Positions 12,471 to 52,222 of a stretch of DNA of 62,890 bases are shown here, piece by piece. Position numbers and translations under genes: made by a program. How positions within the stretch are numbered: the first letter of the stretch is position 1; every line of letters begins with the position of its first letter. The notes beneath the pieces are model-generated. The model was not told the origin of the DNA and did no database searches. It saw only the letters and a list, made by a program, of their open reading frames with translations. Source of the DNA: Blautia sp. (GTDB lineage Bacteria > Bacillota > Clostridia > Lachnospirales > Lachnospiraceae); assembly GCA_017459635.1 (NCBI GenBank), contig JAFUCO010000046.1, positions 1 through 62,890 on the forward strand. The letters run 5' to 3'.

Positions 12471-12499
12471 TTGTCAACTATGAAATAATTAGTTAAAAT
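12471..12499 (+). promoter_or_regulatory. Likely comEA promoter
   Basis: TTGTCA (12471-12476) and TAAAAT (12494-12499) are 17 bases apart. Transcription would begin near 12506. This leaves a possible TTG start at 12510 almost leaderless and supports the ATG at 12558. Confidence 0.55.
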
Positions 12500-12557
12500 A
12501 GGAAATGATTTGTATGAGAACCGGTTCTGGATTCGTAATGAAGAAAGGCCGGAGAAC

Positions 12558-13412: not shown

Positions 13413-13422
13413 GGAGAGTTAA

Positions 13423-14112: not shown

Positions 14113-14283
14113 GGCCGTAGGAGTGTACCCGCTCTGGAGGATTGTGAAACGGTCGCTTTGAGTGTCTCAAAAGATATTGTTGAGAGACAGCATCAGCAGT
14201 TTTTCAACTGCAGCAGCCCGGAGCCGAAGGCGCGCGGCTGCTTTTGGGAGCAATCCTTCTGTGTTTCAAAGTATTAGATCAAA

Positions 14284-14345
14284 CAGGGGCTGTGAAAAAG
14301 GACCCTCCGGGAATTCAGGGGGATCTTTTTTTACAGCCCCTTTAA
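14284..14345 (+). terminator. GGGGCTGTGAAAAA-type hairpin between regulator and kinase
   Basis: AGGGGCTGTGAAAAAGGA pairs with the mirror block ending TTTTTTTACAGCCCCT, with an inner GGACCCTCC/GGGGGATC stem. It belongs to a terminator family repeated at 39984, 45149 and 52083. It sits just before the kinase ribosome binding site, so it is either a partial terminator or an attenuator. Confidence 0.6.
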
Positions 14346-14357
14346 GAGGAGTTTCTG

Positions 14358-28474: not shown

Positions 28475-28526
28475 TTGACAATTTTAAAAATAATATGTAT
28501 TATAGTATTAAACCGAAACGTTTCGG
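28475..28526 (+). promoter_or_regulatory. Sugar operon promoter with a LacI-type operator
   Basis: TTGACA (28475-28480) and TATTAT (28498-28503) with 17-base spacing form a strong sigma-A promoter. CCGAAACGTTTCGG (28513-28526), a perfect palindrome, covers the transcription start region. The same GAAACGTTTC core lies at the promoter of the ABC operon (35081-35090). Repression by one or both LacI proteins of the island is inferred. Confidence 0.75.
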
Positions 28527-28573
28527 GTATTGTTTTTGTTATCAGACGGAAATCATAAAAGGAGGAAATGATT

Positions 28574-29425
28574 ATGCCACTTGTTACGTCAAAAGAGATG
28601 CTTCTTGATGCCCAGAAAGGTGGTTATGCTGTAGGCGCATTCAATGCTGAGAATATGGAAATGGTGAAGGCTATTATCCAGGCGGCTGAGGAACTGAAAG
28701 CGCCGGTTATGATCCAGACAACACCTTCCACTATCAGATACGGTACTCTTGATACTTATGCGGCGATAGTTGCGGCAGAGGCAAAAAAAGCATCTGTCCC
28801 GGTATGCCTTCATCTTGACCACGGCAGCAGCTTTGAACTTGCCGTGCAGGCTATAAAGGCAGGATATACATCTGTCATGATCGACGGCTCCAAGCTTCCG
28901 TTTGAAGAGAATATAGAAGTGACAAAAAAAGTAGCAGATGTTGCAGCGGCCATTGATATACCCTGCGAGGCTGAGCTTGGTAAAGTAGGCGGCAAAGAGG
29001 ATGACCTTGTTGCTGAGGCTGATACAAACACAGATCCAAAGGAAGCTGCAGAGTTTGTAGAGCGCACAGGGATCACATCCCTTGCGGTTGCCATCGGTAC
29101 AGCCCACGGCTTTTATGTTGGCACCCCGGTGCTTGACAAAGAGCGCCTGAGTGAGATCCGTAAAGTGGTTGACATTCCGCTGGTACTTCACGGAGCGTCC
29201 GGCCTCACGGATGAGGATGTAAGTGACTGCGTAAAGAGGGGCATCTGCAAGGTCAACTTTGCAACTGAGCTCCGCGCCGCATATACAAAAGCTGTAAGGG
29301 AACTCCTGGCAGCTGATGAAAAAGCGTTTGATCCGAAAGCATACGGAAAGACCGGAATTGCAGCTGTGAAGGAGCTTGTAATGTCCAGAATGAAAGTCTG
29401 CGGCTGTGACGGAAAAGCAAAATAA
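28574..29425 (+). CDS. Class II ketose-bisphosphate aldolase (fructose/tagatose type)
   Basis: Zinc aldolase that cleaves a ketohexose 1,6-bisphosphate to DHAP and glyceraldehyde 3-phosphate. The 284-residue protein matches the short GatY/KbaY/Fba class II group: HLDHGSSFE carries the catalytic Asp and first zinc His, GTAHGFY the second zinc His and LVLHGASGL the third. The length and the sugar-operon context favour tagatose-1,6-bisphosphate as substrate over a housekeeping FBP aldolase, but sequence by eye cannot separate them. The start at 28574 has AGGAGG 8 bases upstream, rather than the ATG at 28568. It is the first gene after the operator-bearing promoter. Confidence 0.9.
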   Translation: MPLVTSKEMLLDAQKGGYAVGAFNAENMEMVKAIIQAAEELKAPVMIQTTPSTIRYGTLDTYAAIVAAEAKKASVPVCLHLDHGSSFELAVQAIKAGYTSVMIDGSKLPFEENIEVTKKVADVAAAIDIPCEAELGKVGGKEDDLVAEADTNTDPKEAAEFVERTGITSLAVAIGTAHGFYVGTPVLDKERLSEIRKVVDIPLVLHGASGLTDEDVSDCVKRGICKVNFATELRAAYTKAVRELLAADEKAFDPKAYGKTGIAAVKELVMSRMKVCGCDGKAK

Positions 29426-29639
29426 TAAACGCGGTCATGATCACGATCCGAAATGTGACTGCTCCGTAACTGTTCAGGTCCTGAACAGATACATCGCTAC
29501 TTTCTCAGCAGGCAGGATAAAGCACATTATTCTGGCAGTGCACCCTGGGGAAGGCGCAGCTTAAGAAGAAATGCCAGGGCAGCGCAGGACAGGGCAAAGA
29601 GAATAAGCATATGCAGGCCAGCGGGGAGTTGAAACGTAA
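29426..29639. other. Intergenic gap with a CTGTTCAG palindrome
   Basis: CTGTTCAG and CTGAACAG pair at 29470-29488, a member of the dispersed palindrome family also seen at 8324 and 50803. No T tract follows and no gene is seen. Confidence 0.55.
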
Positions 29640-30650
29640 ATGGCAGCAACAATGAAGGATATCGCCCGGGTTACCGGACTCGGGCTAGCTACGATCTCCT
29701 CCTATCTTAATGGGGGAAATGTAAGGGAACAGAACCGGGTTAAAATTGAACAGGCCATAGAAGATCTGCACTACGAAGTAAACGAGGTTGCACGGGGACT
29801 CCGGACGCAGGCCACGCGTACGGTCGGCGTTGTGATACCGGAGCTGAACAATGTGTTCTGCTCACAGATCATCACGGGGATGGAGGATGCGCTCCGCTCG
29901 GAAGGGTATGCTACCATTGTATGCGACTGCCGGAGCGATACCGGACTTGAAAAAGAAGCAATAGATTTTCTGGTCAGGAAAAGGGTGGATGGCCTCGTCA
30001 TTGTACCGACGGATATTCAGGGGAGGAATCTCAGGGAATTCCTTAAGTCAGAAAAACCGCTTATACTGATCGACCGCCGTATTCAGGGTATTCACTGCGA
30101 CTCGGTACTTGTCGACAATCGCAGCGCTGCTTCCGAGGCAGTTTTGCATCTGATTAAAAAAGGCCATCGGAACATCGGTATCATCGGCGGTCCCCGGGAT
30201 GTGTTTACTTCACAGGAAAGGCTGGACGGATATGCCGCTGCCCACCGCATGGCCGGGATACCTGTTCAGGAATCCCTCATAATGCACGGCGACTATACGA
30301 TAAGAAGCGGGGCAAGGGGAATCCAGAAGCTGATCTCACGCAACCCGCATATGACAGCGGTGTTCGTGACAAACTATGAAATGACGATGGGCGCGGTGAT
30401 CGGACTCAATGAGCTTTCACTCAAGTTTCCACAGGATATTTCGATAGTAGGCTTTGACAATCTTGAATTTGCCAGGGCCTGCTCGCCTTCACTTACAATT
30501 GTATCCCAGCCGACGGTTGAGATAGGGGAAAAGGCTGCCGAGATAATGCTTTGCAGACTTTCTTCGTCAGGACAGGATGAGGAGCCAAAAATCATTCGCC
30601 TTGGCACTAAACTGATAGAAGGACGCTCGGTTGCGGATATAAGTGACTGA
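29640..30650 (+). CDS. LacI-family transcriptional regulator 1
   Basis: A 336-residue repressor with an N-terminal helix-turn-helix (MKDIARVTGLGLATISSYLNGG) and a periplasmic-binding-protein-like effector domain from about residue 60 (RTVGVVIPELNNVFCSQI). It lies second in the aldolase-kinase run, so it likely controls that unit and binds the GAAACGTTTC operators. Its recognition helix (LATISSYLNGGNV) is almost that of the second LacI at 40103 (LATISKYLNGGNV), so both may read the same site. The inducer is probably the sugar or a phosphorylated intermediate. GGGGAG is 11 bases before the ATG. Confidence 0.92.
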   Translation: MAATMKDIARVTGLGLATISSYLNGGNVREQNRVKIEQAIEDLHYEVNEVARGLRTQATRTVGVVIPELNNVFCSQIITGMEDALRSEGYATIVCDCRSDTGLEKEAIDFLVRKRVDGLVIVPTDIQGRNLREFLKSEKPLILIDRRIQGIHCDSVLVDNRSAASEAVLHLIKKGHRNIGIIGGPRDVFTSQERLDGYAAAHRMAGIPVQESLIMHGDYTIRSGARGIQKLISRNPHMTAVFVTNYEMTMGAVIGLNELSLKFPQDISIVGFDNLEFARACSPSLTIVSQPTVEIGEKAAEIMLCRLSSSGQDEEPKIIRLGTKLIEGRSVADISD

Positions 30651-30795
30651 ACGGCAGCATGCCGGAACAGTAAGGACATGCTGCAATATAACCAGTGCAT
30701 CTGCCTGGCTTTTTCGCTTATTGCGCCGGGCCGGAAACACTTACATAGTAAGAAGCTATGGTCATGAATCGTAACCTTGAACAGATGGAGGAAAA

Positions 30796-32310
30796 ATGAA
30801 ACAGCCATATCTTTTGGGAATAGATATAGGGACCAGTGCCTGCAAGGTGGCAGTGTTCGACCGGGAGGGACACGTAAAGTCCGCGGGAACCGGGGATTAT
30901 GCCGTGTATTATCCGCATCCGGGCTGGGCAGAGCAGGACCCCGAGGAATGGTGGCGTGTTATCTGCCGTACTGTGCGGGAGGTCATTCAAAAAGGGAATA
31001 TTTCTCCGGAGCAGATAGCCGGTGTTGGCATTGACGGACAAAGCTGGTCGGCTATACCTGTGGACAAAGAGGGGAGAGTTCTTGCAAACACACCGATCTG
31101 GATGGACACAAGATCCCAGTATATCTGTGACAGATTAAACCGTGAGATCGGAGAAGAACGGATATTTGAAACTGCGGGAAATTCGCTGCAGCCATCATAT
31201 ACAACGGCCAAAATACTCTGGTATAAAGAAAATTTACCGGAGGTTTATGGTAATATTTATAAAATACTCCAGTCCAACAGCTTTATAGCATTCAGGCTGA
31301 CCGGGGAGATGACACAGGATGTCTCACAGGGATACGGCCTGCATTGCTTCGATATGAAAAAAGCCGTGTGGGATGATGAGATGTGCGCTCTCCTGGGGAT
31401 ACCGAGGGAATTCCTTCCGGAGATCGTTCCCTGCGATCAGGTGATAGGCAGGGTGACAGAAGAAGCGGCGGCACTTTGCGGACTCTGCGAGGGCACACCG
31501 GTAGTTGCGGGCGGACTTGATGCCTGCTGCGGAACTCTCGGTGCCGGAGTCATCCACCCGGGTGAGACACAGGAGCAGGGCGGCCAGGCCGGAGGAATGA
31601 GCATCTGCCTTGATACATATAAGGCTGATCCGCGGCTCATCCTTGGCTATCATGTGGTTCCGTCTCTCTGGCTGCTGCAGGGCGGCACCACCGGCGGAGG
31701 CGGGGTGATGCGCTGGTTTGAGCATGAATTCGCCGACTATGAGCGCAGCATAGCTGCGGAGAAGGGAATGTCTTCCCTTGGACAGCTGAACGTTATAGCA
31801 GAGAAGGTACCTGCGGGGTCGGACGGCCTTCTGTTTCTTCCGTATATGGCGGGAGAGCGGTCACCTGTCTGGGATCCGGACGCGAAGGGTGTGTTCTACG
31901 GGCTCGATTTTTCGAAGACAAAAGGACATATGGTGCGTGCCTGCATGGAAGGTGTAGCGCTTGCCCTCAGGCACAATCTGGAAACCGCACGCGAGGCCGG
32001 TGCTGAAGCAGATGTACTGTGCGCGATGGGCGGATCCGCAAACTCGCTTCTCTGGACACAGATAAAATCAGACATTACAGGAAAAACGATCATAGTTCCC
32101 TCTTCTGATACGGCGACGACACTTGGAGCCGCGATCCTTGCGGGAGTCGGAACCGGAATGTATTCCGGTTATGAAGAGGCAGTGGCACTCACCGTACACG
32201 AGACCAGGAGACATGAACCGAACCCTGAGAACAGAGAGGTCTATGACAGAGCATACAGCAAGTACCTGAAGCTGTATGAGAGCCTGAAGGAATTGATGCA
32301 CAGCATGTGA
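30796..32310 (+). CDS. FGGY-family carbohydrate kinase (xylulokinase-like)
   Basis: ATP-dependent sugar or polyol kinase of 504 residues. The N-terminal phosphate-binding motif is GIDIGTSACKVAVFD; GVGIDGQSWSAIPVD and DTRSQ follow the xylulokinase pattern, and MGGSANSLLWTQIKSDITGKTI is the C-terminal signature. FGGY kinases act on xylulose, ribulose, glycerol, erythritol, xylitol and other polyols. Here no xylose isomerase is present; the next genes encode a sugar-alcohol-phosphate dehydrogenase and a PfkB kinase, so a hexitol kinase is the best contextual guess. D-xylulose remains the alternative. GGAGG lies upstream of the ATG. Confidence 0.88.
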   Translation: MKQPYLLGIDIGTSACKVAVFDREGHVKSAGTGDYAVYYPHPGWAEQDPEEWWRVICRTVREVIQKGNISPEQIAGVGIDGQSWSAIPVDKEGRVLANTPIWMDTRSQYICDRLNREIGEERIFETAGNSLQPSYTTAKILWYKENLPEVYGNIYKILQSNSFIAFRLTGEMTQDVSQGYGLHCFDMKKAVWDDEMCALLGIPREFLPEIVPCDQVIGRVTEEAAALCGLCEGTPVVAGGLDACCGTLGAGVIHPGETQEQGGQAGGMSICLDTYKADPRLILGYHVVPSLWLLQGGTTGGGGVMRWFEHEFADYERSIAAEKGMSSLGQLNVIAEKVPAGSDGLLFLPYMAGERSPVWDPDAKGVFYGLDFSKTKGHMVRACMEGVALALRHNLETAREAGAEADVLCAMGGSANSLLWTQIKSDITGKTIIVPSSDTATTLGAAILAGVGTGMYSGYEEAVALTVHETRRHEPNPENREVYDRAYSKYLKLYESLKELMHSM

Positions 32311-32426
32311 GACTGTACAAAAGCCTTAAGGAACATTTACGCAGTATCTGAAACTGCAAAATTTTTGCATAATATTTGAAGCTGCTCCGGCAGTTATCAT
32401 ATAAGATCAACAGGAGGAAAAATGCC

Positions 32427-33482
32427 ATGAAAGCGGCAGTAGTAGAAGCTAACGAAGACGTGCGCTATGAGGAGATACCTGAGCCTCAGGTGAAAAAAGG
32501 CTGGGTAAAGATCAAGGTAAAGGCATCCGGAATCTGCGGATCGGACGTTCCCAGAGTTCTTCATAACGGAGTTCATTTTTACCCGATAGTCCTTGGACAC
32601 GAATTTTCCGGGGATGTTGTCGAGGTGGGAGAAGGAGTAACAAAAGTAAAGGTCGGCGACAAGGTTTCAGGCGCTCCGCTTATCCCCTGCATGAAATGCG
32701 ATGACTGCCAGAATGGAAATTTCTCACTCTGCAAGCATTACAGCTTTATCGGCTCCAGGGAGAACGGAAGCAATGCGGATTACGTAGTGATACCCGAGCA
32801 GAACGCGGTACCGTTTGATCCTTCAATCTCATATGAGCAGGGAGCTATGTTCGAGCCATCTACGGTTGCTCTTCACGGACTTCTGCAGAATAATTACCAG
32901 GGAGGCCGCTGCGTGGCTGTCCTCGGAGGTGGTACTATCGGCATGTTCACAATGCAGTGGGCAAAGATCTTCGGCTCGAAGAAGGTAGTCGTATTTGACA
33001 TCAGCGATGAGAGGCTTGCACTGGCTAAACGTCTCGGCGCGGATGCAACAATAAACACCAAAAAAGAGGGCTTCATGGAAGAAGCAATGGCTGTAACAGG
33101 CGGGAAAGGCTATGAGTTCGTGTTTGAAACTGCCGGGCAGGTTCCGACAATGCAGATGGCCTTTGAGCTTGCTTCCAACAAAGCACGCGTCTGCTTCATA
33201 GGAACGCCGCATGTGGATCTTTCCTTTACCCCAAAGATGTGGGAGAATATGAACCGTAAAGAATTCTATCTGACAGGCTCCTGGATGTCATACAGCGCTC
33301 CGTTCCCGGGAAAGGAATGGGAACTCACTGCTCATTATTTTGCGACCGGCCAGCTGAAATTCGATCCTTCTTTCATTTATAAAAAGATCCCCATGAGTGA
33401 AGCGAACGAAGCCTTCCAGCTTTTCAAGACTCCGGGGCTTGTACAGGGCAAGATACTTCTGGTAAACGAAGATCTGCAGTAA
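32427..33482 (+). CDS. gatD: Zinc-dependent polyol-phosphate dehydrogenase (galactitol-1-phosphate 5-dehydrogenase type)
   Basis: Medium-chain dehydrogenase of 351 residues that oxidises a sugar alcohol (phosphate) to a ketose (phosphate) with NAD. The catalytic zinc ligands are in SGICGSDVPR and GHEFSG; the structural zinc cysteines are in CMKCDDCQNGNFSLC; the NAD motif is VAVLGGGTIG and the specificity Asp is in VVVFDIS. The stretches CGSDVPRVLHNGVHFYPIVL and SLCKHYSFIGSRENGS recall GatD proteins. In PTS bacteria GatD makes tagatose 6-phosphate from galactitol 1-phosphate; here no PTS genes are seen. AGGAGG lies 9 bases before the ATG. PfkB follows 18 bp later, so the two are co-transcribed. 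L-iditol/sorbitol dehydrogenase is the alternative. Confidence 0.8.
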   Translation: MKAAVVEANEDVRYEEIPEPQVKKGWVKIKVKASGICGSDVPRVLHNGVHFYPIVLGHEFSGDVVEVGEGVTKVKVGDKVSGAPLIPCMKCDDCQNGNFSLCKHYSFIGSRENGSNADYVVIPEQNAVPFDPSISYEQGAMFEPSTVALHGLLQNNYQGGRCVAVLGGGTIGMFTMQWAKIFGSKKVVVFDISDERLALAKRLGADATINTKKEGFMEEAMAVTGGKGYEFVFETAGQVPTMQMAFELASNKARVCFIGTPHVDLSFTPKMWENMNRKEFYLTGSWMSYSAPFPGKEWELTAHYFATGQLKFDPSFIYKKIPMSEANEAFQLFKTPGLVQGKILLVNEDLQ

Positions 33483-33500
33483 GAAGACAGGTGGAAAAAA

Positions 33501-34433
33501 ATGATACTGACAGTGACAGCTAATGCCGCGATCGATAAACGCTATGTTGTGGAACGGTTTGGCGTGGGAAGCGTTAACCGTGTAAAATCCTGCCAGGCCA
33601 ATGCCGGCGGCAAGGGGATCAATGTAGCCAGAGTTGCTTCGATAGTCGGCGAGAAGATGACAGCGACAGGTTTCCTCGGGGGACATGCCGGTAAATTCAT
33701 TTCCGAAAGAGTTGAAGCGAGAGGCATTAAAAGCGATTTTGTATGGTGTGAAGGCGAGAGCCGTACCTGCATAAACATATACAATGAGATCACGGGGGAA
33801 CAGACAGAATTCCTTGAACCGGGTTTTACCGTTACGAAGGAGGACTGTGACAGGCTGGTAGAAAAGTACAGCACTATTCTCCCGGACTGCCGTGTGGTGG
33901 CGATCTCGGGAAGTACTCCTGCAGGAGCCGGATCCGCGCTTTATAAAGAATTGATCTTTGAGGCCGAAGAGGCGGGGAAACCGGTAATCCTGGATACTTC
34001 AGGAAAGCTGCTTGAGGAATGCCTTGCTGCAAGGCCTACAATGATAAAGCCTAATATAGATGAGATAAGACAGCTTACCGGAAGACCGATGAACAGCCGT
34101 GAAGCGATCATCGCTGCAGCACGCGACCTGCATCATGAAGGTATCAGGATCGTTGTGATCTCTCTTGGCAGCAAAGGGTCGCTGCTGTCGTGCGATGAAG
34201 GAGTTTTCGACGTAACGGTTCCTAAGATAGAAGCCGCAAATACTGTCGGCTGTGGTGATTCGATGATAGCCGGATTTGCTGTCGGTATGTCAAGAGGACT
34301 TCCGATAACAGAAACTATAAGGCTTGCGAGCGCTGTATCAGCCGCAAATGCCATGCGGCTGGAAACCGGCTTCGTGGTGATGGACGATGTGAACCGCCTG
34401 ATGCCGCAGATCGAGATCCGCAAGATAAGATAA
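33501..34433 (+). CDS. PfkB-family kinase (1-phosphofructokinase / tagatose-6-phosphate kinase type)
   Basis: A 310-residue ribokinase-superfamily sugar-phosphate kinase. The N-terminal GGKGINVARV and the C-terminal NTVGCGDSMIAGFAVG (catalytic Asp in GCGDS) are the two PfkB signatures; the ILDTSGKLL and KPNIDEIRQL blocks are those of the LacC/FruK branch, which phosphorylates ketose phosphates. With GatD upstream and a ketose-bisphosphate aldolase in the same cluster, tagatose 6-phosphate (at C1) is the likely substrate; fructose 1-phosphate is the alternative. AGGTGG lies 6 bases before the ATG. It is the last gene of the plus-strand catabolic run. Confidence 0.9.
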   Translation: MILTVTANAAIDKRYVVERFGVGSVNRVKSCQANAGGKGINVARVASIVGEKMTATGFLGGHAGKFISERVEARGIKSDFVWCEGESRTCINIYNEITGEQTEFLEPGFTVTKEDCDRLVEKYSTILPDCRVVAISGSTPAGAGSALYKELIFEAEEAGKPVILDTSGKLLEECLAARPTMIKPNIDEIRQLTGRPMNSREAIIAAARDLHHEGIRIVVISLGSKGSLLSCDEGVFDVTVPKIEAANTVGCGDSMIAGFAVGMSRGLPITETIRLASAVSAANAMRLETGFVVMDDVNRLMPQIEIRKIR

Positions 34434-34497
34434 GAAAGGATACGCCTGATGATGCGCATCCATGGACTGAGTCTTAAGCAGCTGCTGTGCTATGCGC

Positions 34498-34890
34498 TCA
34501 GAGCCGCTGGGCGAATTCCACCTTTTCCTTATTTGGTCCTTCGATAGTGAAGTATTTGACTCCGTTATCCCAGAAAGGAAGAAAATGGATCTCATCGTTC
34601 AGAGTGTTTATACCGCGGGAGCAGATAAAATCATAGGCACCCTCGATGTCGTTTACGGATATGGCGAAGTGTTCTATTGCGCCATGGCACATATGGGCTT
34701 CGCTGCATTCGTACACCTCGAGCATCAGATTGCCGAGCTGCAAAAAGTTTACAACCGATCCGTCCTTCGGATCAGTCGTAGTATGGACTACATCGAAACC
34801 GAGCTCGGTGTAAAAGATAAGGGATTCCATCATGTCCTTTGTAGGGATGCCAATATGGGCAAGACCTTCTGTATAGTCGGTTATTCTCAA
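34498..34890 (-). CDS. VOC-family (glyoxalase I-like) metalloprotein
   Basis: A 130-residue single-domain member of the vicinal oxygen chelate fold. The metal set looks complete: His in LAHIGIPT, Glu in LEVYE, His in IEHFAISV and Glu in KVEFAQ. This HEHE pattern fits glyoxalase I-type isomerases and some epimerases. The TTG start at 34890 is chosen because AGAGG lies 9 bases upstream; a TTG at 34899 directly abuts it. It runs against the flanking sugar genes, between the catabolic and the transport units. Methylglyoxal from DHAP is a plausible target, but a sugar-derivative epimerase is equally possible. Confidence 0.82.
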   Translation of the reverse strand: MRITDYTEGLAHIGIPTKDMMESLIFYTELGFDVVHTTTDPKDGSVVNFLQLGNLMLEVYECSEAHMCHGAIEHFAISVNDIEGAYDFICSRGINTLNDEIHFLPFWDNGVKYFTIEGPNKEKVEFAQRL

Positions 34891-34991
34891 TTTATTCAAC
34901 CTCTTTTCTTTAATACGTTATGTGACGGTGATGCCGCCGCATAAGAATCATAACACAGGAATGAAATCACATCAAGTGAATAAGGTGTGTT

Positions 34992-35019
34992 GTTACTGTT
35001 TACGGCTGTGAACAGTAAC
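34992..35019. repeat. Solo terminal-repeat hairpin of the MITE-like family
   Basis: GTTACTGTTTAC and GTGAACAGTAAC face each other across four bases, forming a 12-bp stem. The arms equal the ends of the elements at 24883 and 21260 with the interior missing. It sits between the VOC gene and the ABC promoter; no gene is present in 34900-35214. Confidence 0.65.
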
Positions 35020-35041
35020 CACCAAATTCACAAAATATCTG

Positions 35042-35090
35042 TTGACAAAAAAATGTCCATGTAGGATAATAAGTATGCGTGAAACGTTTC
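35042..35090 (+). promoter_or_regulatory. ABC transporter promoter with a LacI-type operator
   Basis: TTGACA (35042-35047) and GATAAT (35065-35070) have 17-base spacing. GAAACGTTTC (35081-35090) lies at the start region, the same core and about the same position as at the aldolase promoter. The two units are therefore likely one regulon. Confidence 0.75.
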
Positions 35091-35214
35091 GTTCTGCCGT
35101 TCGTTTGACGATTATTCACAAAATCCTGCATTCTTTCGGGAAAAAGCGGAGAGCAGTAAGTGCCGCATACCCGCAAGGCATCGGGGCAAAGTACATTTAG
35201 CGGGAGGTAAGAAA

Positions 35215-36192
35215 TTGGAAGGCATTAAACAAAACCCAATCGTTAAGAAGCTGGGGTTCAACCGCATCATCCTGTTCTGCATACTGGTCCTTCTGTATGT
35301 GGCGTTCTCCATTGCCATTCCGGGATTTGCCGGCATGGCGCGTATCATGAGTATCCTCAATTATGTTTACTTTCTTGGATTCCTTGCGCTCGGCGTTACT
35401 TTTGTAATTGCAACGGGCGGCATCGATTTCTCAATTGGGCCGGTTATGTTCTGCTGTGCCCTTATCGCAGGCTATTCACTCAACACCTACAAGCTGCCGG
35501 TTGCTGCAGCCCTTCTGCTCAGCATCGTCATCGGCTTCTGCTTCGGAATCTTCAACGGATGGCTGGTTGCATTTGTAGGAGTTCCCCCCTTTATCGTATC
35601 AATGGCTTCGATGAACATTGCCAAGGGCCTTGGCTCTGTGTTCACAAAGACCCAGTCAGTCAGCTGGCCGCAGGCAAATGACCCGGAAGGCAGAGGATGG
35701 TTCCGTAACCTTGTCAAAGTCGGAGGCGTTCCCACCGGACTTATCATTTTTGCCATATTCGTAGTAATACTTTTTATCATCATGAACAATACCAAGCCGG
35801 GACGTTACATCCTTTCGCTTGGAAGCAATAAAGAAGCGGTCCGCCTTTCGGGCGTAAATGTACGCAAATGGCAGATGCTTGCATACGTGATATGCGGTAC
35901 TCTGGTAGGAATTGCCGCGATATTCTTTGTCGGAGCTTATACGACAGTACAGCCCGGTCTTGGCGACACTTACAACAATGAGGCAATAGCTTCATGTGTT
36001 ATGGGTGGTACTTCGATGGCCGGCGGTCTTGCCTCCATCGGCGGAACCGTTATCGGAGTGTTCGTCATTTCACTGCTTCAGGAAGGTATCATGGCTCTCC
36101 GTATGACAAAAGAGGTTCAGATGATAATCACCGGCCTGATCGTTATTGTGTTCGTGTATGCGGATGTTTCGGCAAGACGCCGCAAGAACTGA
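35215..36192 (+). CDS. Sugar ABC transporter permease 1 (RbsC family)
   Basis: A 325-residue integral membrane protein with about eight to ten helices and the branched-chain/ribose permease pattern (TGGIDFSIGPVMFCCALIAG, SLGSNKEAVRLSGVNVRKWQ, GGTSMAGGLASIGGTVIGV). It forms half of the membrane channel. The start is a TTG with GGGAGG 7 bases upstream. It is the first gene of the transporter operon; the ATPase follows 17 bp later. It differs clearly from the second permease at 37719, so the channel is probably a heterodimer. Confidence 0.93.
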   Translation: MEGIKQNPIVKKLGFNRIILFCILVLLYVAFSIAIPGFAGMARIMSILNYVYFLGFLALGVTFVIATGGIDFSIGPVMFCCALIAGYSLNTYKLPVAAALLLSIVIGFCFGIFNGWLVAFVGVPPFIVSMASMNIAKGLGSVFTKTQSVSWPQANDPEGRGWFRNLVKVGGVPTGLIIFAIFVVILFIIMNNTKPGRYILSLGSNKEAVRLSGVNVRKWQMLAYVICGTLVGIAAIFFVGAYTTVQPGLGDTYNNEAIASCVMGGTSMAGGLASIGGTVIGVFVISLLQEGIMALRMTKEVQMIITGLIVIVFVYADVSARRRKN

Positions 36193-36209
36193 TGAAAGGA
36201 GAAGGAAAA

Positions 36210-37706
36210 ATGGGTGAAGTTATCTTAACAATGAAAGGCATCGACAAATCCTTCCCCGGCGTACACGCACTGGATCATGTCGATCTGGAACTGAGAAAAG
36301 GCGAAGTTCATGCTCTTATGGGCGAGAACGGCGCAGGCAAATCGACCCTGATGAAGGTTCTCACCGGTATCTACACAAAGGACTCCGGAACCATCACCTT
36401 CGAAGGGAAAGAAGTGGAATTCCACAACACACACGAAGCTCAGGAAGCGGGCATCGTTATCGTTCATCAGGAGCTTAACATGGTAGGTGACCTGACGGTT
36501 GCGCAGAACATCTTTATCGGCCGTGAATTCAAGAAGGGCATAATGATCGATGACAAAAAGATGATCGCGGAATCCCGCAAGCTTTTTGATGAGCTGCACA
36601 TCGACATCGACCCGAAGGCCAAGATGAGCGACCTGACAGTCGGCAAGCAGCAGATGTGCGAGATAGCAAAGGCAATCTCCCATAAGGCAAAGGTCATTAT
36701 CTTTGACGAGCCTTCCGCGGCTCTGACAGAGAAGGAGATCGAGGATCTGTTCGTTATCATCCGTGATCTTCGTAAGCAGAATCTGGGCATCATCTACATC
36801 TCACACCGTATGGATGAGATCAAGGTCATTACCGACCGTGTCACGGTAATGCGTGACGGCGGTTATGTTGGAACCCTGATAACTGAAGAGTGTACAAAGG
36901 AAGACATCATCAACATGATGGTCGGCCGTGTCATCTATGAGGATCCGAAGACGCACAGCATGGTACCGGATGACGCTCCTGTAGTACTTAAGGTGGAACA
37001 CCTTAATGCAGGAAAGATGGTACAGGATGTAAGCTTTGAACTTAAGAAGGGCGAGATCCTCGGCTTCTCAGGACTTATGGGTGCGGGACGTACCGAGACA
37101 GCCAGAGCGCTGTTCGGAGCCGACCCGAAGACCGGGGGGGACATCTACATCAACGGCCAGAAGGTCACCATCAATTCCCCGGAGGATGCTGTTAAGCATG
37201 GTATCGGATACCTGTCAGAGGATCGCAAGCGTTACGGTATCGTCGTTCAGAAGACCATTACGGAAAACTCCACGATGGCAACGATGGAGAAATTCACCAG
37301 CGGCCTGTTTATAAACAAAGGAGCCGAGAAAAAGGCTGCCGAGCAGTATATTAAGGAGCTGGCGACCAAGACCCCGAGCGCGGATGAACTGGTCGTTAAC
37401 CTGTCGGGCGGCAACCAGCAGAAGGTTGTTATCGCCAAGTGGCTGGTCCGCAACTGTGATATCCTTATCTTCGATGAGCCGACAAGAGGTATCGACGTTG
37501 GTGCCAAGAATGAGATCTACAAACTGATGAACCGTCTGGCAGCAGAGGGCAAATCCATCATCATGATCTCTTCCGAGATGACAGAGATACTTCGTATGAG
37601 CGACCGTATAGTGGTAATGTGCGAAGGCAAAAAGACCGGCGAGATCAGGATAGAGGACGCTACTCAGGAAGCGATCATGGACAAAGCGACCAGGGATATC
37701 AACTGA
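36210..37706 (+). CDS. Sugar ABC transporter ATPase (RbsA/MglA type, double domain)
   Basis: A 498-residue fusion of two nucleotide-binding domains that powers uptake. The first domain has a full Walker A (GENGAGKST) and Walker B (VIIFDEPSAALT) but a weak signature (LTVGKQQM). The second has a degraded Walker A (GLMGAGRTE) and a full signature (LSGGNQQKV). This asymmetry is normal for RbsA/MglA/XylG proteins. AGGAG lies 8 bases before the ATG. An ORF extending back to 35994 overlaps the permease in another frame and is not the start. Confidence 0.95.
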   Translation: MGEVILTMKGIDKSFPGVHALDHVDLELRKGEVHALMGENGAGKSTLMKVLTGIYTKDSGTITFEGKEVEFHNTHEAQEAGIVIVHQELNMVGDLTVAQNIFIGREFKKGIMIDDKKMIAESRKLFDELHIDIDPKAKMSDLTVGKQQMCEIAKAISHKAKVIIFDEPSAALTEKEIEDLFVIIRDLRKQNLGIIYISHRMDEIKVITDRVTVMRDGGYVGTLITEECTKEDIINMMVGRVIYEDPKTHSMVPDDAPVVLKVEHLNAGKMVQDVSFELKKGEILGFSGLMGAGRTETARALFGADPKTGGDIYINGQKVTINSPEDAVKHGIGYLSEDRKRYGIVVQKTITENSTMATMEKFTSGLFINKGAEKKAAEQYIKELATKTPSADELVVNLSGGNQQKVVIAKWLVRNCDILIFDEPTRGIDVGAKNEIYKLMNRLAAEGKSIIMISSEMTEILRMSDRIVVMCEGKKTGEIRIEDATQEAIMDKATRDIN

Positions 37707-37718
37707 CAGGGGGATTAA

Positions 37719-38690
37719 ATGATGACGAAGAAAAAATCAATATTTACTCAGGAAGTTATCGTTGGAATCGTGCTGGTCGCCCTGTACTTTTTCTTCAGGA
37801 CCATCAGCGCCGACTTCGGTAAGTATACAACTTTCCTGAGCATGATGGATATTTCATACTATTATGTATTTATGGCTATCGGCGTGGCCTTCCCGCTTAT
37901 CACCGGCGGTGTTGATCTTTCGATCGGTACAGGAATGATCTGCTACGCTCTGGCAGGCGGCTTTATGATCCGCCAGTATGGCTGGCCTACCGGCCTTGCC
38001 ATCTGCCTGTCGATCGTTTTCGGTCTTGCTATCGGCCTTTTGAACGGTGTGCTGATCGCTCTTATGGGGCTGCCGCCTTTCCTGGCTACTCTTTGTACCT
38101 GTATGATCACCCGTGGCCTTGGCTCTGTTGTTACCGGTTCCTTTGCGGTTCCGTGGCCGACTGCCAAACAGCCTAACGGATGGTTCCACTCGATCTTCAA
38201 GATCACACTGGAAAACAAGACTAAAATTCCGCTCGGACTTGTCTGGGTTATCCTGCTTATGCTGATCATGCAGTTCGTGCTGGCACATACCAAATTCGGA
38301 CGTTACACTATAGCTATCGGTTCCAACAAGGAAGCTGCCATGCTTTCCGGAATCAATGTTAAGTTCTATCATGTGATGGTCTACGCGGTGAGCGGGCTTT
38401 TCGCAGGACTTGCATCTATCGCATACGGCGCGGTCATCAAGACCGTTCAGCCGGGTACCGGAGCCGGTATGGAGCTTGATGCTATCGGCGGTGCCATAGT
38501 CGGCGGCGTATCGGCATCAGGCGGATACGGAACCATATACGGAACAGTTATCGGAGCATATGTCATTATCTTCCTTAAACAGGGACTTCCGTACATCGGA
38601 TTTAACGCAAACATGCAGCAGATCATCACAGGCCTTGTACTTATAGGCGCTGTTGCCATCGATATTGTAAAGAGGAAAGTTGTCAAATAA
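37719..38690 (+). CDS. Sugar ABC transporter permease 2 (RbsC family)
   Basis: A 323-residue partner permease with the same family motifs (TGGVDLSIGTGMICYALAGG, AIGSNKEAAMLSGINVKFYH, GGVSASGGYGTIYGTVIGA). It starts 12 bp after the ATPase stop and ends 150 bp before the binding protein gene. Most RbsABC systems use one permease as a homodimer; here two related ones are encoded. Confidence 0.93.
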   Translation: MMTKKKSIFTQEVIVGIVLVALYFFFRTISADFGKYTTFLSMMDISYYYVFMAIGVAFPLITGGVDLSIGTGMICYALAGGFMIRQYGWPTGLAICLSIVFGLAIGLLNGVLIALMGLPPFLATLCTCMITRGLGSVVTGSFAVPWPTAKQPNGWFHSIFKITLENKTKIPLGLVWVILLMLIMQFVLAHTKFGRYTIAIGSNKEAAMLSGINVKFYHVMVYAVSGLFAGLASIAYGAVIKTVQPGTGAGMELDAIGGAIVGGVSASGGYGTIYGTVIGAYVIIFLKQGLPYIGFNANMQQIITGLVLIGAVAIDIVKRKVVK

Positions 38691-38756
38691 ACTCTACTAT
38701 TGCCTTATCACCTGTACATTATATGCAGCAGTTCAGAACAGATACCATTATTTCTG

Positions 38757-38784
38757 AAAATCACCCCGATGACGGGGGATTTTA
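38757..38784 (+). promoter_or_regulatory. Stem-loop between permease 2 and the binding protein gene
   Basis: AAAATCACCCC pairs with GGGGGATTTT over a GATGAC loop. No T tract beyond TTTT follows. A hairpin here could protect or process the message so that binding protein is made in excess over permease, as in other ABC operons; that role is inferred. Confidence 0.45.
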
Positions 38785-38840
38785 TAAAAGGGATCAGGAC
38801 GGTCCCGAAAATGATTCATTCACAAAAGGAGGAAAAACGA

Positions 38841-39944
38841 ATGATGAAAAAAGCTTTAGCAGTTATCATGTCTGCAGCACTGGTAGGAAGCCTTGCATGC
38901 GCACCGGTTTTCGCTGAGAACCTCTCCGATACTTCAGAGGGTATCGCTCAGTTTGATGGCCTTACCGCTAACGAGCCGTATGACTTCCAGATCGTTGTTA
39001 AATCATTCCAGTCAACATACTGGCAGGCAGCTCTGCAGGGTATGGATCAGGCAAAAGATGAGCTTGGTGTTACCTATTCAGCTCAGGGACCGGCTTCCGA
39101 ATCTGACATCGCAGATCAGGTTAACATGCTGAACAGCGCTATCAACGGCGCACCGGCTGGTGTTGGCCTTGCGGCATGCGATACTTCTTCCGTACTTGAG
39201 TCTCTGCAGACAGCAGCTGACAACGGTGTTCCGATCGTAGCATTCGATACCGGTATCGCAGATGCTCCGGAAGGCTCAGTAGTTTGTACAGTTGTTACAG
39301 ACAACGTAGCAGCAGGTGAGGTTGCAGCAGTTAACCTTTATGAAGCAATCAAGGATCAGCTTGGCGATGGCACTGTACGTATCGGTGAGATCAACCAGGA
39401 CAACTATGCTCTCAACATTCAGCAGAGAGGCCTTGGCTTCATCAACAAGATCATCGAGCTTGCAAATGCAGACGGCTACAGCGTAGCTATGGAAGGCAAC
39501 GAATACTATGTAAACGAAGCAGTAGGCGCTGTTGAAGGCGATGCAGACATCATCCTTGAGGTTCGTGTACCGGCTCAGACAACAGTTGATATGTGCTCAA
39601 CAGAAGCTGGAACTATCCTTGACAAGGAAGACACAATCGCTGTATTCGGTTCCAACCAGACAGCAGCTGAGGGACTTCTTGTTGCAAACGACAACCGTGA
39701 GGTTCTTGGCGACACAATCGTTGGTGTAGGCTTTGATGCCGGTACATCAATCAAGGCAGCTGTAGAAGACGGCACATTCCTTGGCGCTGTTACACAGTCT
39801 CCTCTGATGATGGGCTACTACTGCATCTACGCTCTGACCGCAGCAGCAAACGGCCAGGAGCTTATCGATGTTCCGACAGACGGTTACTGGTATGACGCAT
39901 CCAACATGGATGACGAAGCAATCGCTCCGAACCTTTATGACTAA
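38841..39944 (+). CDS. Sugar ABC transporter substrate-binding protein
   Basis: Exported receptor for the sugar or sugar alcohol, 367 residues, of the type I periplasmic-binding-protein fold (ribose/galactose/allose group). The signal peptide MMKKALAVIMSAALVG is followed by either a lipid site at SLAC (Cys20) or a cleavage after VFA. IVVKSFQSTYWQAALQGMDQAKDELGV is the usual first strand-helix, and GVGFDAGTSIKAAVEDGTFLGAVTQSPLMMGYY the second half-lobe. AGGAGG lies 8 bases before the ATG. The evenly biased codon use fits high expression. No ligand-specific residues can be assigned by eye. A strong terminator follows. Confidence 0.93.
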   Translation: MMKKALAVIMSAALVGSLACAPVFAENLSDTSEGIAQFDGLTANEPYDFQIVVKSFQSTYWQAALQGMDQAKDELGVTYSAQGPASESDIADQVNMLNSAINGAPAGVGLAACDTSSVLESLQTAADNGVPIVAFDTGIADAPEGSVVCTVVTDNVAAGEVAAVNLYEAIKDQLGDGTVRIGEINQDNYALNIQQRGLGFINKIIELANADGYSVAMEGNEYYVNEAVGAVEGDADIILEVRVPAQTTVDMCSTEAGTILDKEDTIAVFGSNQTAAEGLLVANDNREVLGDTIVGVGFDAGTSIKAAVEDGTFLGAVTQSPLMMGYYCIYALTAAANGQELIDVPTDGYWYDASNMDDEAIAPNLYD

Positions 39945-39983
39945 TTAATATTACCGTCTGAAAATAAAATTGATTGATTAGAA

Positions 39984-40020
39984 GGGGCTGTGAAAAAAGT
40001 TTTACTTTTTTCACAGCCCC
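39984..40020 (+). terminator. Terminator of the ABC operon
   Basis: GGGGCTGTGAAAAAAGT pairs with ACTTTTTTCACAGCCCC, a 17-bp perfect stem over a 3-base loop. The T run is inside the stem, as in the sister copies at 45149 and 52083. Confidence 0.88.
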
Positions 40021-40067
40021 TGTATTATTTGAAAATATACTGTTATATTGTTGTAAGAAGCGTGCCC

Positions 40068-40104
40068 GGGGTGGAGAAAAAGACTTTTTTCACACCCCTT
40101 TTTT
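40068..40104 (+). terminator. Second terminator hairpin between the convergent units
   Basis: GGGGTGGAGAAAAAG pairs with CTTTTTTCACACCCC, followed by TTTTTTA. It abuts the stop of the opposing LacI gene. Confidence 0.75.
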
Positions 40105-41116
40105 AGGCAATATCTTTTACGGATTCGTGTTCCTGAATATCAGTATCCAGAACTATATGCTGCGGCGGACTGTCTGCACCATTTTTCTTTTCCTCTGCTC
40201 TGAGGATGAGGAGTTCTGCCGCACGATATGCGAGCTGCTCGGTAGGCTGTACCGCTCCGGTGATGCGCGGACGGATGATCTCCGAGAAGATCATACTGTC
40301 AAATGCTATCAGGGAGACATCATCCGGGTAGCTGAAGCCGGATGAGCTGACAGCCATTACAGCACCAATAAGGATCTCATAGTTGCACAGGAATACAGCG
40401 GTCGGTGGCTCTGGAAGAGAAAGCAGCTGCTGCATGCCTTCGTAGCCGGAGGAGATCGAAAGGCCTTCAGCGGATATTATATATTCGTCCGGTATACGGA
40501 TACCTGCCTTATCAATAGCGGCAATAAAGGCGCTTAAGCGCTCCTGCCCTGTATACTCTGTATGGGATGAGATCACTGCGATTTTACGATGATGATTGCG
40601 GATGAGTATGTCTACAAGGCGTTCTGTAGTCTGCCGGTTTGAGACCAGAACGCTGTCACAGTCATCCTCCCTGAACACCCGGTCCAGACATATTACAGGT
40701 ATTCCTGCATCCCTGGCAATTTTAAGGCAGGAGGGATCATCGGAAACAGGCATTATGATAATTCCATCCACATTTTTCTGAACCATTGAGCGGATGTTCT
40801 GTTTTTCGGCTTCAGGATTTTTGTTAGAATCACAGATCATCATTCCATAGCCATGTTTCCTGAGATATTCTCCAATATAACGCAGAAGTGTGCCTACAAA
40901 CAGATTTTCTACGGAGAAGACGATAACGCCCATGACCCGGGTCTGATTTGTGACAAGGCTGCGGGCGTTTTCATTAACCTGATAATTCAGGGCTTTGACG
41001 GCTTCGTCGATCTTGATTTTGTTCTCAGGAAGGACATTGCCTCCGTTGAGGTATTTTGAAATAGTAGCAAGCGAAAGGCCTGTCCTGTTCTTTATATCAA
41101 CGATGGTCGAGCGCAT
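40103..41116 (-). CDS. LacI-family transcriptional regulator 2
   Basis: A 337-residue regulator, convergent with the ABC operon. The helix-turn-helix is IVDIKNRTGLSLATISKYLNGGNV, nearly identical in its recognition part to that of the regulator at 29640, while the effector domains differ. It thus looks like a paralogue that reads the same GAAACGTTTC operator but senses another ligand, or binds one promoter preferentially. AGAGG lies upstream of the ATG at 41116. No copy of the operator is seen at its own promoter. Confidence 0.92.
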   Translation of the reverse strand: MRSTIVDIKNRTGLSLATISKYLNGGNVLPENKIKIDEAVKALNYQVNENARSLVTNQTRVMGVIVFSVENLFVGTLLRYIGEYLRKHGYGMMICDSNKNPEAEKQNIRSMVQKNVDGIIIMPVSDDPSCLKIARDAGIPVICLDRVFREDDCDSVLVSNRQTTERLVDILIRNHHRKIAVISSHTEYTGQERLSAFIAAIDKAGIRIPDEYIISAEGLSISSGYEGMQQLLSLPEPPTAVFLCNYEILIGAVMAVSSSGFSYPDDVSLIAFDSMIFSEIIRPRITGAVQPTEQLAYRAAELLILRAEEKKNGADSPPQHIVLDTDIQEHESVKDIA

Positions 41117-42541: not shown

Positions 42542-43942
42542 ATGGCAAACTATTATCTGGCTGTTGATATCGGTGCTTCGAGCGGACGTCTTATACTCGG
42601 GCATATGGAAAACGGACATATGGAGCTCGAAGAGGTTTATCGCTTTGAGAACGGCATGGTCAGGAAAAACGGACATCTGTGCTGGGAGTTTGACCGCCTG
42701 AAAAACGAGATACTTGCAGGTATGAAGAAGTGCCGTGAGATGGGTAAGGTACCTGTAAGCATGGGTGTCGATACCTGGGGTGTGGATTTTGTCCTGCTTG
42801 ACAAGGATGACAAGGTGATCGGTGATTTTGTAGGATACCGCGACCACAGGACAGACGGGATGGATGAAGAAGTATACAAGATCATTCCAAAGGATGAGCT
42901 GTATGCGCGCACAGGTATACAGAAGGCAATATTCAATACGGTTTATCAGTTGATGGCTGTGAAGAAGGAGCATCCCGAATATCTTGATGAAGCCTTCACA
43001 ATGCTTCATGTTCCGGACTATTTTCATTATCTTCTTACAGGGAAGAAAACATGTGAATATACAGAGGCGACAACCGGCCAGCTGGTTAAGGCCGACACAA
43101 AGGAATGGGACTATGAACTGATCGACAGGCTTGGTTATCCGAGAAGGATATTCCAGAAGCTTATTATGCCGGGAACGGTTATCGGACACCTTTCTCCTGA
43201 AGTTCAGGCTGAAGTGGGCTTCGACCTTGAAGTTGTAGCCCCGGCTACGCACGATACAGGTTCAGCGGTTCTTGCTGTTCCTGCGAATGATGATGATTTT
43301 ATCTACATTAGCTCAGGCACCTGGTCTCTTATGGGGATCGAACGCATGGAGCCTGACTGCTCTGCGGAAAGCTGCAGCCTGAATTTTACCAATGAGGGCG
43401 GATATGCAGGAAGATACCGTTATCTGAAAAACATTATGGGCCTCTGGATGATCCAGTCGGTACGGCATGAGGTCAATGACAGATACAGCTTTGCCGAGAT
43501 CTGCCAGATGGCTGAGGAAGCCAGGGATTTTCCGTCCAGAGTAGACGCTAATGACGAGTGCTTCCTGTCTCCTGACAATATGACCGAGGAAGTGAAGGAT
43601 TATTGCCGCCGGACAGGACAGAAGGTTCCGGAAACCATGGGCGAACTTGCAACAGTTATCTATACCAGCCTTGCAGAGTGCTATGCGCGCACAGCGAAGG
43701 AACTGGAAAAGATGACAGGAAGAACCTACAGCAGGATACATGTTGTCGGAGGCGGCTCGAACGCCGGATACTTAAATGAGCTTACCGCAAGGACTACCGG
43801 AAAAGAGATACATGCCGGTCCGGGAGAAGCTACCGCTATTGGAAATATAACTGCTCAGATGCTTCAGAAGGGTGAGTTTGGATCGATCGAGGAAGCACGT
43901 ACCTGTATTCACGAATCCTTTGGCATAAAAATATATAATTGA
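42542..43942 (+). CDS. rhaB: Rhamnulokinase
   Basis: FGGY-family kinase that makes L-rhamnulose 1-phosphate from L-rhamnulose and ATP. The 466-residue protein carries YYLAVDIGASSGRLILG, GVDTWGVDFVLLDKD, YRDHRTDGM and the C-terminal HVVGGGSNAGYLNELTARTTG, the pattern of RhaB rather than xylulokinase. The isomerase (rhaA), aldolase (rhaD) and transporter are not in the window. Some RhaB proteins also take L-fuculose, which would fit the FucU gene at 11719, but this is speculative. Confidence 0.92.
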   Translation: MANYYLAVDIGASSGRLILGHMENGHMELEEVYRFENGMVRKNGHLCWEFDRLKNEILAGMKKCREMGKVPVSMGVDTWGVDFVLLDKDDKVIGDFVGYRDHRTDGMDEEVYKIIPKDELYARTGIQKAIFNTVYQLMAVKKEHPEYLDEAFTMLHVPDYFHYLLTGKKTCEYTEATTGQLVKADTKEWDYELIDRLGYPRRIFQKLIMPGTVIGHLSPEVQAEVGFDLEVVAPATHDTGSAVLAVPANDDDFIYISSGTWSLMGIERMEPDCSAESCSLNFTNEGGYAGRYRYLKNIMGLWMIQSVRHEVNDRYSFAEICQMAEEARDFPSRVDANDECFLSPDNMTEEVKDYCRRTGQKVPETMGELATVIYTSLAECYARTAKELEKMTGRTYSRIHVVGGGSNAGYLNELTARTTGKEIHAGPGEATAIGNITAQMLQKGEFGSIEEARTCIHESFGIKIYN

Positions 43943-50983: not shown

Positions 50984-51997
50984 ATGAAAAGAAAAAGACT
51001 ACTTGCCATTCTGGCGGTTGCAACGGCGTTTTCGTACGTTCTGTCCGCCTGCAGTGTGGGGGGCGACAAGCCCAATAAGGAACAGGTTATAGTGGAAGAG
51101 ACTGTTGAAGAATCTACTCCGACACCGGAACCGTCTCCGACAGAGGAGCCTCAGGTATGGGAGCCGGTATACACATCTCAGGACGGAAGCATGTCTATAG
51201 AGATGCCTGACCAGACCTGGTCGAACAAGACGGATGCCAACGGGATCGTCAGCATCGAATCCGACAGCGGCAAAATTGTCATAATCCATGGAAAGGATGA
51301 GGACATGGATACCCTTGTCCTGCCTGATTCAGAGGATATGGCCATTACGCTTGAAAAAGCGAAGGAGCTTGAGGACGGCGAGTTCGAGGTCATGAACTAC
51401 AGCAACCGTGATCAGAACGGCGCGAATGTGATCTACTATACAGTCAGCTACAGCAACACTGAAAAGAGTGACGGGGTTTACAGGGAGATCGTCAAGTATA
51501 TCAGCAATGCCGATGAATATTATGAGATTACCGGTGACCTTACTACGGATGATGAGGAGATGGCCGGAAAGGTCATTACGGCTGTAAACAGCTTCAAGAT
51601 CCTTGGCGCATCATCTCTTGCAGGCACAGGCGAGACTGCGCAGGATGATGGCCGCGAAGCCCTTTCGCCGGAAGACGGGACAGAGGATGGCACTTCTGAA
51701 GGCGAGCTGGTTGACGCAGAACCGGCGGATGATTCTTCAGGATCAGACGGCTATACTGACGGCTATTCCGATGATGATCTGGCAGATACAAACCGTACAC
51801 GTACTATCTACCTTGACAGTGATGTCGGAATTGTCATAACAAACAATGATGACGGTACCTGGTCGGATGAGAACGGAAATGTATACACCTTTGATTCTTC
51901 GGATGATTCGATCGTGCGGAATCAGGATGACGTTGACTACTTCTATAATGGAGAACCCGGAAACGTCCGTTACATGTACAGAACTGAGGGAGAATAA
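50984..51997 (+). CDS. Acidic lipoprotein of unknown function
   Basis: A 337-residue lipoprotein with a canonical lipobox LSAC (Cys23), a short Pro/Glu/Thr spacer (TPTPEPSPTEEPQ), then a domain of about 170 residues. The domain (VYTSQDGSMSIEMPDQTWSN ... KVITAVNSFKIL) resembles surface PsbP-like or DUF-type folds found in clostridial lipoproteins. An Asp/Ser/Glu-rich linker and a small C-terminal module (YLDSDVGIVITNNDDGTWSDENGNVYTF) follow. No enzymatic motif is seen. AAGGAGG is 5 bases before the ATG. Two hairpins follow, so it is probably monocistronic. Confidence 0.82.
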   Translation: MKRKRLLAILAVATAFSYVLSACSVGGDKPNKEQVIVEETVEESTPTPEPSPTEEPQVWEPVYTSQDGSMSIEMPDQTWSNKTDANGIVSIESDSGKIVIIHGKDEDMDTLVLPDSEDMAITLEKAKELEDGEFEVMNYSNRDQNGANVIYYTVSYSNTEKSDGVYREIVKYISNADEYYEITGDLTTDDEEMAGKVITAVNSFKILGASSLAGTGETAQDDGREALSPEDGTEDGTSEGELVDAEPADDSSGSDGYTDGYSDDDLADTNRTRTIYLDSDVGIVITNNDDGTWSDENGNVYTFDSSDDSIVRNQDDVDYFYNGEPGNVRYMYRTEGE

Positions 51998-52003
51998 AAA
52001 CCG

Positions 52004-52124
52004 GGGGTAAAAAAGTTTACTTTTTTGCCACCCTTTGCCCCCCTTTTCCCCGGGCATGCTTTTTTGGTTATCCTCGAGGACCAGGGCTGTGAAAAAAGTA
52101 AAACTTTTTTCACAGCCCTTTTTA
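52004..52124 (+). terminator. Paired terminators after the lipoprotein gene
   Basis: GGGTAAAAAAGT pairs with ACTTTTTTGCCACCC (52006-52035). AGGGCTGTGAAAAAAGT pairs perfectly with ACTTTTTTCACAGCCCT (52083-52119), followed by TTTTAT. The second is nearly identical to the ABC-operon terminator at 39984. Confidence 0.85.
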
Positions 52125-52147
52125 TCTTGATGAGGTTGTACAGGAGA

Positions 52148-52218
52148 GATGACAGGGTTTGGGTGCAAATCTGAAAGGGGAAGATGACAGGGTTTGGGGT
52201 GCGGATCAGAAAGGAATT
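52148..52218 (+). repeat. 35-bp direct duplication carrying a ribosome-binding region
   Basis: GATGACAGGGTTTGGG starts copies at 52148 and 52183. Each copy continues with a CTGAAAGG/ATCAGAAAGG purine-rich site. The second is the ribosome binding site of the methyltransferase; the first precedes a decoy ATG at 52184. Confidence 0.75.
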
Positions 52219-52222
52219 GGCT

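Follow-up and report, generated by a model that had tools for sequence, protein, structure and literature searches.

The galactitol pathway that starts with the phosphotransferase system (PTS), made up of GatABC, GatD, GatYZ, and PfkA or LacC, is the closest described counterpart of a gene set found in a 62,890-nucleotide stretch of DNA from Blautia sp. (family Lachnospiraceae, class Clostridia; contig JAFUCO010000046.1 of assembly GCA_017459635.1). This stretch, hereafter the window, is one contig (C17) of a 2.67-Mb, 67%-complete genome, and its nearest relatives in a scan of named genomes are Blautia or Lachnospiraceae genomes. Both systems contain a GatD-like dehydrogenase, a kinase of the tagatose-6-phosphate type, and a GatY-type aldolase; here, however, an FGGY kinase stands in for GatABC, and an aldose-reductase-type aldo-keto reductase (AKR) appears to belong to the same regulon. 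The Agrobacterium routes for galactitol and altritol likewise use hexitols independently of the PTS, but they pass through unphosphorylated tagatose, with oxidation preceding phosphorylation, whereas phosphorylation first is proposed here. The L-fucose pathway (FucI-FucK-FucA) has the same importer family and FucU, and often occurs in the same genomes, but it is isomerase-first and cleaves to lactaldehyde, and in this genome FucI lies outside the regulon considered here. An engineered yeast route from galactose through galactitol to tagatose follows the same logic of a reductase and then a dehydrogenase with no isomerase (PMC6430769), but it is engineered, and its redox steps follow each other with no kinase intervening. 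EryA and glycerol kinase are FGGY polyol kinases as well, although they act on short polyols and, in a 2011 FGGY survey, have another signature (GlpK Arg83-Glu84; PMC3245297). We propose that the Blautia gene set is a new version of the galactitol/tagatose-6-phosphate pathway and that, as the genome comparisons are best read, an ATP-dependent hexitol kinase would replace its PTS step.

An earlier sequence-only reading of this DNA had placed a ketose-bisphosphate aldolase, an FGGY kinase, a GatD-like dehydrogenase, a PfkB kinase, and an RbsABC-type importer in one co-oriented island without PTS genes. All of these genes are present where that reading put them, but they form two transcription units (enzymes at 28568-34433 and the CUT2 importer at 35215-39944). 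Each unit is led by a strong promoter of its own and, after it, a perfect palindrome, and a minus-strand gene lies between the units. References for GatA, GatB, and GatC, the PTS families that were searched, had no match among window open reading frames (ORFs) of at least 60 amino acids at E 1e-3, in line with the claimed lack of PTS genes. The features are as follows.

28475..28503, plus strand: enzyme-operon promoter, TTGACA and TATTAT with a 17-nt spacer (spacing computed from the sequence)
28515..28524, no strand: palindrome GAAACGTTTC within CCGAAACGTTTCGG, candidate LacI operator, 11 nt past the -10 element
28568..29425, plus strand: class II ketose-bisphosphate aldolase, GatY-like, proposed tagatose-1,6-bisphosphate aldolase (profiles; histidine motifs retained)
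29640..30650, plus strand: LacI-family regulator LACI1, proposed binder of the palindrome (profile matches)
30796..32310, plus strand: FGGY kinase with GQSWS in place of the GQMHG of XylB, a candidate hexitol (galactitol) kinase
32427..33482, plus strand: GatD-like Zn-dependent polyol-phosphate dehydrogenase, proposed galactitol-1-phosphate 5-dehydrogenase (start assumed at ATG 32427)
33501..34433, plus strand: PfkB-family kinase of the 1-phosphofructokinase/LacC (FruK/LacC) type, proposed D-tagatose-6-phosphate kinase (motifs GCGD and GGKG)
34498..34899, minus strand: VOC/glyoxalase-fold gene between the two units (profile matches)
35042..35070, plus strand: importer-operon promoter, TTGACA and GATAAT with a 17-nt spacer
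35081..35090, no strand: second palindrome GAAACGTTTC, 10 nt past the -10 element
35215..36192, plus strand: CUT2 permease 1, RbsC-like (profile matches)
36207..37706, plus strand: CUT2 ATPase, RbsA-like (profile matches; tree)
37719..38690, plus strand: CUT2 permease 2, RbsC-like (profile matches)
38844..39944, plus strand: solute-binding protein, proposed to bind an L-fucose-type aldose (signal peptide by eye)
40103..41116, minus strand: second LacI-family regulator LACI2 (relatives replace the kinase-side regulator in some loci)

Related loci were drawn as the best 80 of 395 stretches from named genomes, and genes within 6.5 kb of the kinase were counted in the 59 loci where the stretch reaches 4 kb or more beyond the kinase in both directions. 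The neighborhood search suggested by the sequence-only reading recovered the gene set in these loci more often than chance would allow: a GatD-like gene lies within this distance in 57, the aldolase in 55, AKR in 50, PfkB in 47, a LACI1-type regulator in 38, FucU in 30, FucI in 10, GatZ in 2, and galactitol-type PTS genes in 1. The kinase occurs in 35 of 200 genera of the family (one genome each; match at E 1e-120) and in 26 of 391 genomes of a class-wide sample (E 1e-140), 24 of them outside the family. For 13 of these 24 a locus was available, and it held the GatD-like gene in all 13, AKR in 9, FucU in 7, GatZ in 5, and FucI in none.

The kinase narrowly exceeds the cut-off of the XylB model TIGR01312 (383.2 bits against 380.25), and in the PDB it is closest to xylulokinases and to 3ifr, an unspecified kinase of the FGGY family. 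According to the 2011 survey, however, the XylB-I signature includes a successive Met-His pair (PMC3245297), and at this position the kinase family has Ser-Trp in 87 and Gly-Trp in 7 of 94 aligned members, some of which come from overlapping loci. The Trp was retained in 13/13 further members, whereas, of the 13 other FGGY proteins examined in these loci, at least 3 have the xylulokinase-type GQMHG. By its predicted active site, the kinase is not a xylulokinase. In a literature search that mostly covered papers outside subscription, neither "galactitol kinase" nor "hexitol kinase" occurred in any paper, and no description of this gene set came up. The suggestion that a hexitol kinase of this kind would be a new activity was thus left uncontradicted by the literature found; the 2011 survey does not mention galactitol, xylitol, or ribitol, although it names glycerol and erythritol kinases (PMC3245297).

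The GatD-like protein has GatD (4a2c) as its best PDB relative; the PfkB protein is nearest to LacC; and the aldolase, nearest to AgaY, at 383.2 bits just clears the cut-off (383) of PRK12737, the GatY subfamily model of NCBIfam, reaches that of the general aldolase model TIGR00167, and falls below the equivalog TIGR01858 (338 of 444 bits). The enzyme unit of the window has no GatZ, and EIIA_2, searched across the genome, matched just once, on another contig. In the 200 family genomes, GatD-like proteins (E 1e-110) gave 40 matches in 37 genomes, and six of these matches had no such kinase nearby. Four of the six loci (L162, L163, L167, and L168) instead combine GatA, GatB, and GatC with an aldolase, two of them also with PfkB, and the GatD-like proteins of these four PTS operons are 61-69% identical to the window protein. 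In the other two (L160 and L161), the kinase is located elsewhere in the genome, adjoining AKR (L143 and L142, respectively); in one such genome (G179, 7% contamination), FucU-AKR-FGGY (L142) is split from aldolase-GatD-PfkB (L161), a division that coincides with the proposed order of reactions.

GatZ, a subunit of tagatose-bisphosphate aldolase, accompanies the kinase where PfkB was not seen in L056, L097, L098, and L136 (where the contig soon ends), as well as in five loci outside the family. The exchange with the PTS and the clustering of GatZ with the kinase in several lineages therefore point to D-tagatose 6-phosphate as the product that the GatD-like step would yield. The sequence-only reading had favored this or another unusual ketose phosphate, and its central suggestion, an FGGY kinase taking the place of the PTS ahead of GatD, a tagatose-6-phosphate kinase, and an aldolase, is supported on comparative grounds by the GatABC genes in four of the six kinase-less loci.

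The palindrome GAAACGTTTC has six exact copies in the genome, three at promoters and three within ORFs (two long ones, and one of 132 codons that may be no gene). Two of the promoter copies precede the enzymes and the importer, and the third precedes the AKR gene on contig C34 (TTGCAT-16-TATAAT, 14 nt), which had already been picked by sequence alone before its palindrome was seen. The 80 related loci (1.458 Mb) hold 75 copies, 74 of them close to labeled genes, namely the aldolase in 43 loci, FucU in 33, a permease in 8, the kinase in 6, a LACI2-type regulator in 5, and GatZ in 2; in the same loci the reversed word has 5 copies, and 19 palindromes of the same half-composition average 1.4. Some loci without GAAACGTTTC carry DeoR- or ROK-like regulators instead. 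We infer that a LacI protein binds GAAACGTTTC and that the two form a regulator-operator pair. FucI, on contig C44 of this genome, appears to fall outside the palindrome regulon because no site with 0-1 mismatches was found near it. On balance, we lean toward the view that the enzymes, the importer, and AKR constitute one LacI-controlled regulon for one aldose, a leaning that applies to the model as a whole.

AKR is present in 35 of the 200 family genomes (E 1e-110), comprising 32/35 kinase genomes and 3/165 others (G013, G093, and G107; p 3.4e-30, uncorrected for phylogeny). FucI, found in 33/35 kinase genomes and 25/165 others, allows kinase and L-fucose use to be separated: AKR tracks the kinase rather than L-fucose use, because it occurs in 32/33 FucI genomes with the kinase and in only 2/25 without. 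The best PDB relatives of AKR are mannose-6-phosphate reductase and aldehyde and aldose reductases, and in NCBIfam a relative of it matched DkgA/DkgB, far under the cut-off. The Asp, Tyr, Lys, and His that we take to be catalytic are present in motifs DCAACY and FIHWP, found by script, and IMTKVW, found by eye. From this distribution and its candidate operator, AKR is predicted to belong to the pathway. In L157, L158, and L159, AKR without the FGGY kinase adjoins a different Zn dehydrogenase, 27-28% identical to the GatD-like protein, in a polyol-pathway-like arrangement.

An aldose reductase in the regulon implies that an aldose is imported, and an aldose reductase together with a tagatose-6-phosphate product would fit an aldose with galactitol as its alditol, that is, L- or D-galactose. 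FucU, the L-fucose mutarotase, acts on aldoses, and in a tree of 28 sequences the relatives of the importer ATPase fall into a single family, where those linked to the cassette are interspersed with those linked to FucI; more distant importer relatives (binding protein 38-41%) lie beside FucI in L117, L118, and L129, from genomes that gave no match to the kinase. Both FucU and the relationship of the importer to fucose-type importers favor L-galactose, D-galactose being possible. Corn xylan contains L-galactose, and a gut GH95 enzyme, from Bacteroides, sets it free (PMC4491172); a Pfam scan of eight selected neighboring ORFs found one GH29 and one GH95 protein. The Thr/His marker for L-galactosidases of GH95 described in that source (PMC4491172) was not used, as Thr is present both in the GH95 protein beside L146 and in 8zbv, which is named a fucosidase.

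In the pathway that we propose, the CUT2 importer would take in an aldose of L-fucose configuration with a 6-hydroxyl, most likely L-galactose, and AKR, encoded on the other contig, would reduce it to galactitol, a meso compound in which the distinction between L and D vanishes. The FGGY kinase would convert galactitol with ATP to galactitol 1-phosphate, the GatD-like enzyme would oxidize this to D-tagatose 6-phosphate, and the PfkB kinase, or PfkA where PfkB is absent, would form D-tagatose 1,6-bisphosphate. The GatY-type aldolase, joined by GatZ in some relatives, would then cleave the bisphosphate to dihydroxyacetone phosphate and glyceraldehyde 3-phosphate. All of the enzymatic steps and the identity of the sugar are read from sequence; the route from an imported aldose through galactitol, galactitol 1-phosphate, and tagatose phosphates to trioses has, in our judgment, slightly better than even prospects of being correct. 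The fuller statement, that gut Clostridia turn L-galactose into galactitol and use an FGGY hexitol kinase to enter at D-tagatose 6-phosphate without isomerase or epimerase, is put forward tentatively, and we would sooner expect part of it to fail.

Several observations weigh against this pathway. The top NCBIfam model of the GatD-like protein is GatD, but its 318 bits are far under the equivalog cut-off of 550; L061 and L065 hold GatABC-type genes together with the kinase (two L061 proteins were checked); the five GatZ loci outside the family show no GatY-type aldolase or PfkB nearby; and L072, L084, and L102 have neither PfkB nor GatZ. Three kinase genomes (G005, G057, and G111) have no AKR, and the co-occurrence counts are uncorrected for phylogeny. 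As a bare 10-mer, GAAACGTTTC is not enriched genome-wide (6 copies, against 10 for the reversed control); 24 of the 80 loci, including truncated ones, have no copy close to these genes, and its exact form was found in just 1 of the 13 loci outside the family. Finally, galactokinase is present in 25/35 kinase genomes and 88/165 others (p 0.06), counts that proved indecisive as a test of D-galactose, and it was not found in this 67%-complete genome; being no rarer with the kinase than without it, galactokinase indicates that the cassette is not simply its replacement.

The importer could instead take in galactitol or another hexitol directly for phosphorylation by the FGGY kinase, as the sequence-only reading had supposed, with AKR serving another purpose. 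This may hold in L064, L136, L150, and L169, where the kinase stands with other CUT2-type importers or dehydrogenases and AKR was not seen in the stretch. In the window's genome, however, AKR has the same palindrome and the importer is of the type that adjoins FucI, so that direct import is unlikely here and the cell probably makes the hexitol itself from an aldose that it takes up.

It is similarly improbable that the substrate of the FGGY kinase is a ketose, be it L-tagatose, L-fuculose, D-tagatose, or D-xylulose, and that the GatD-like enzyme or AKR acts on the ketose phosphate. The XylB model is, if barely, exceeded, and FucI, with its near-constant presence in kinase genomes, would supply L-ketoses; but the Met-His pair is replaced in all 94 aligned members, with the Trp kept in the 13 others, FucI has no palindrome here and is absent from all 13 loci outside the family, and the interchange of kinase and PTS implies a phosphorylated polyol. 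L-Tagatose made by FucI was demoted as a substrate of the FGGY kinase.

A side branch of L-fucose or L-rhamnose breakdown, in which AKR would reduce lactaldehyde and the other enzymes would handle a by-product, is very unlikely, even though L147 holds FucI, a RhaB-family kinase, an importer, and cassette genes as one contiguous block, FGGY-AKR adjoins rhamnose genes in L143, and AKR adjoins a Pdu-like locus in L159: AKR is rare in FucI genomes without the kinase, and a 6-deoxy sugar would leave PfkB, GatZ, and a tagatose-type aldolase without an evident function. That the cassette is itself the L-fucose pathway was dropped, since RhaB-family kinases already adjoin FucI and class II aldolase-fold (PF00596) proteins occur in 34/35 kinase genomes, and PfkB and GatZ would again lack an evident role. 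An apparent absence of FucA (TIGR01086, E 1e-30, 0/35) was rejected as the product of a narrow model; FucA-like ORFs, 29-34% identical to a FucA-like reference, lie beside FucI in L121, L123, L125, L126, and L127. One further kinase gene of the window belongs here.

42542..43942, plus strand: rhamnulokinase-family kinase, with a fuculokinase role proposed (relatives adjoin FucI or RhaA)

Neither an isomerase nor an aldolase was seen alongside this gene. Elsewhere in the same genome, L139 (contig C18 of G000, 7059-14879) is a Pdu-like locus with a class II aldolase-fold protein, an aldehyde dehydrogenase, and PduS/PduT-like ORFs, named by eye; the aldehyde dehydrogenase was confirmed in the similar L159. 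Relatives of the VOC/glyoxalase-fold gene are close to the kinase only in L032, L044, L051, L056, L058, and L107. A cassette copy in L105 adjoins a sulfatase-like ORF and ABC genes (by eye), and in L076, under a DeoR-type regulator, the cassette adjoins a second FGGY gene together with genes resembling rhamnulokinase, a TIM-barrel epimerase (by eye), and FucA. A short intergenic sequence, noticed by eye through CEKSFTFFTA-like translated strings, may recur at 39945-40100 and 51743-52474 of the window and in L141 and L179, and is possibly a dispersed repeat or terminator.

The proposed pathway, if correct, would assign a role to a widespread kinase at present labeled xylulokinase by profiles, and the FGGY family would gain a hexitol kinase. 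It lends itself to simple predictions (one regulon, three operators, and one new kinase), and it would provide Blautia and other Clostridia with a route for L-galactose or a second route for D-galactose.

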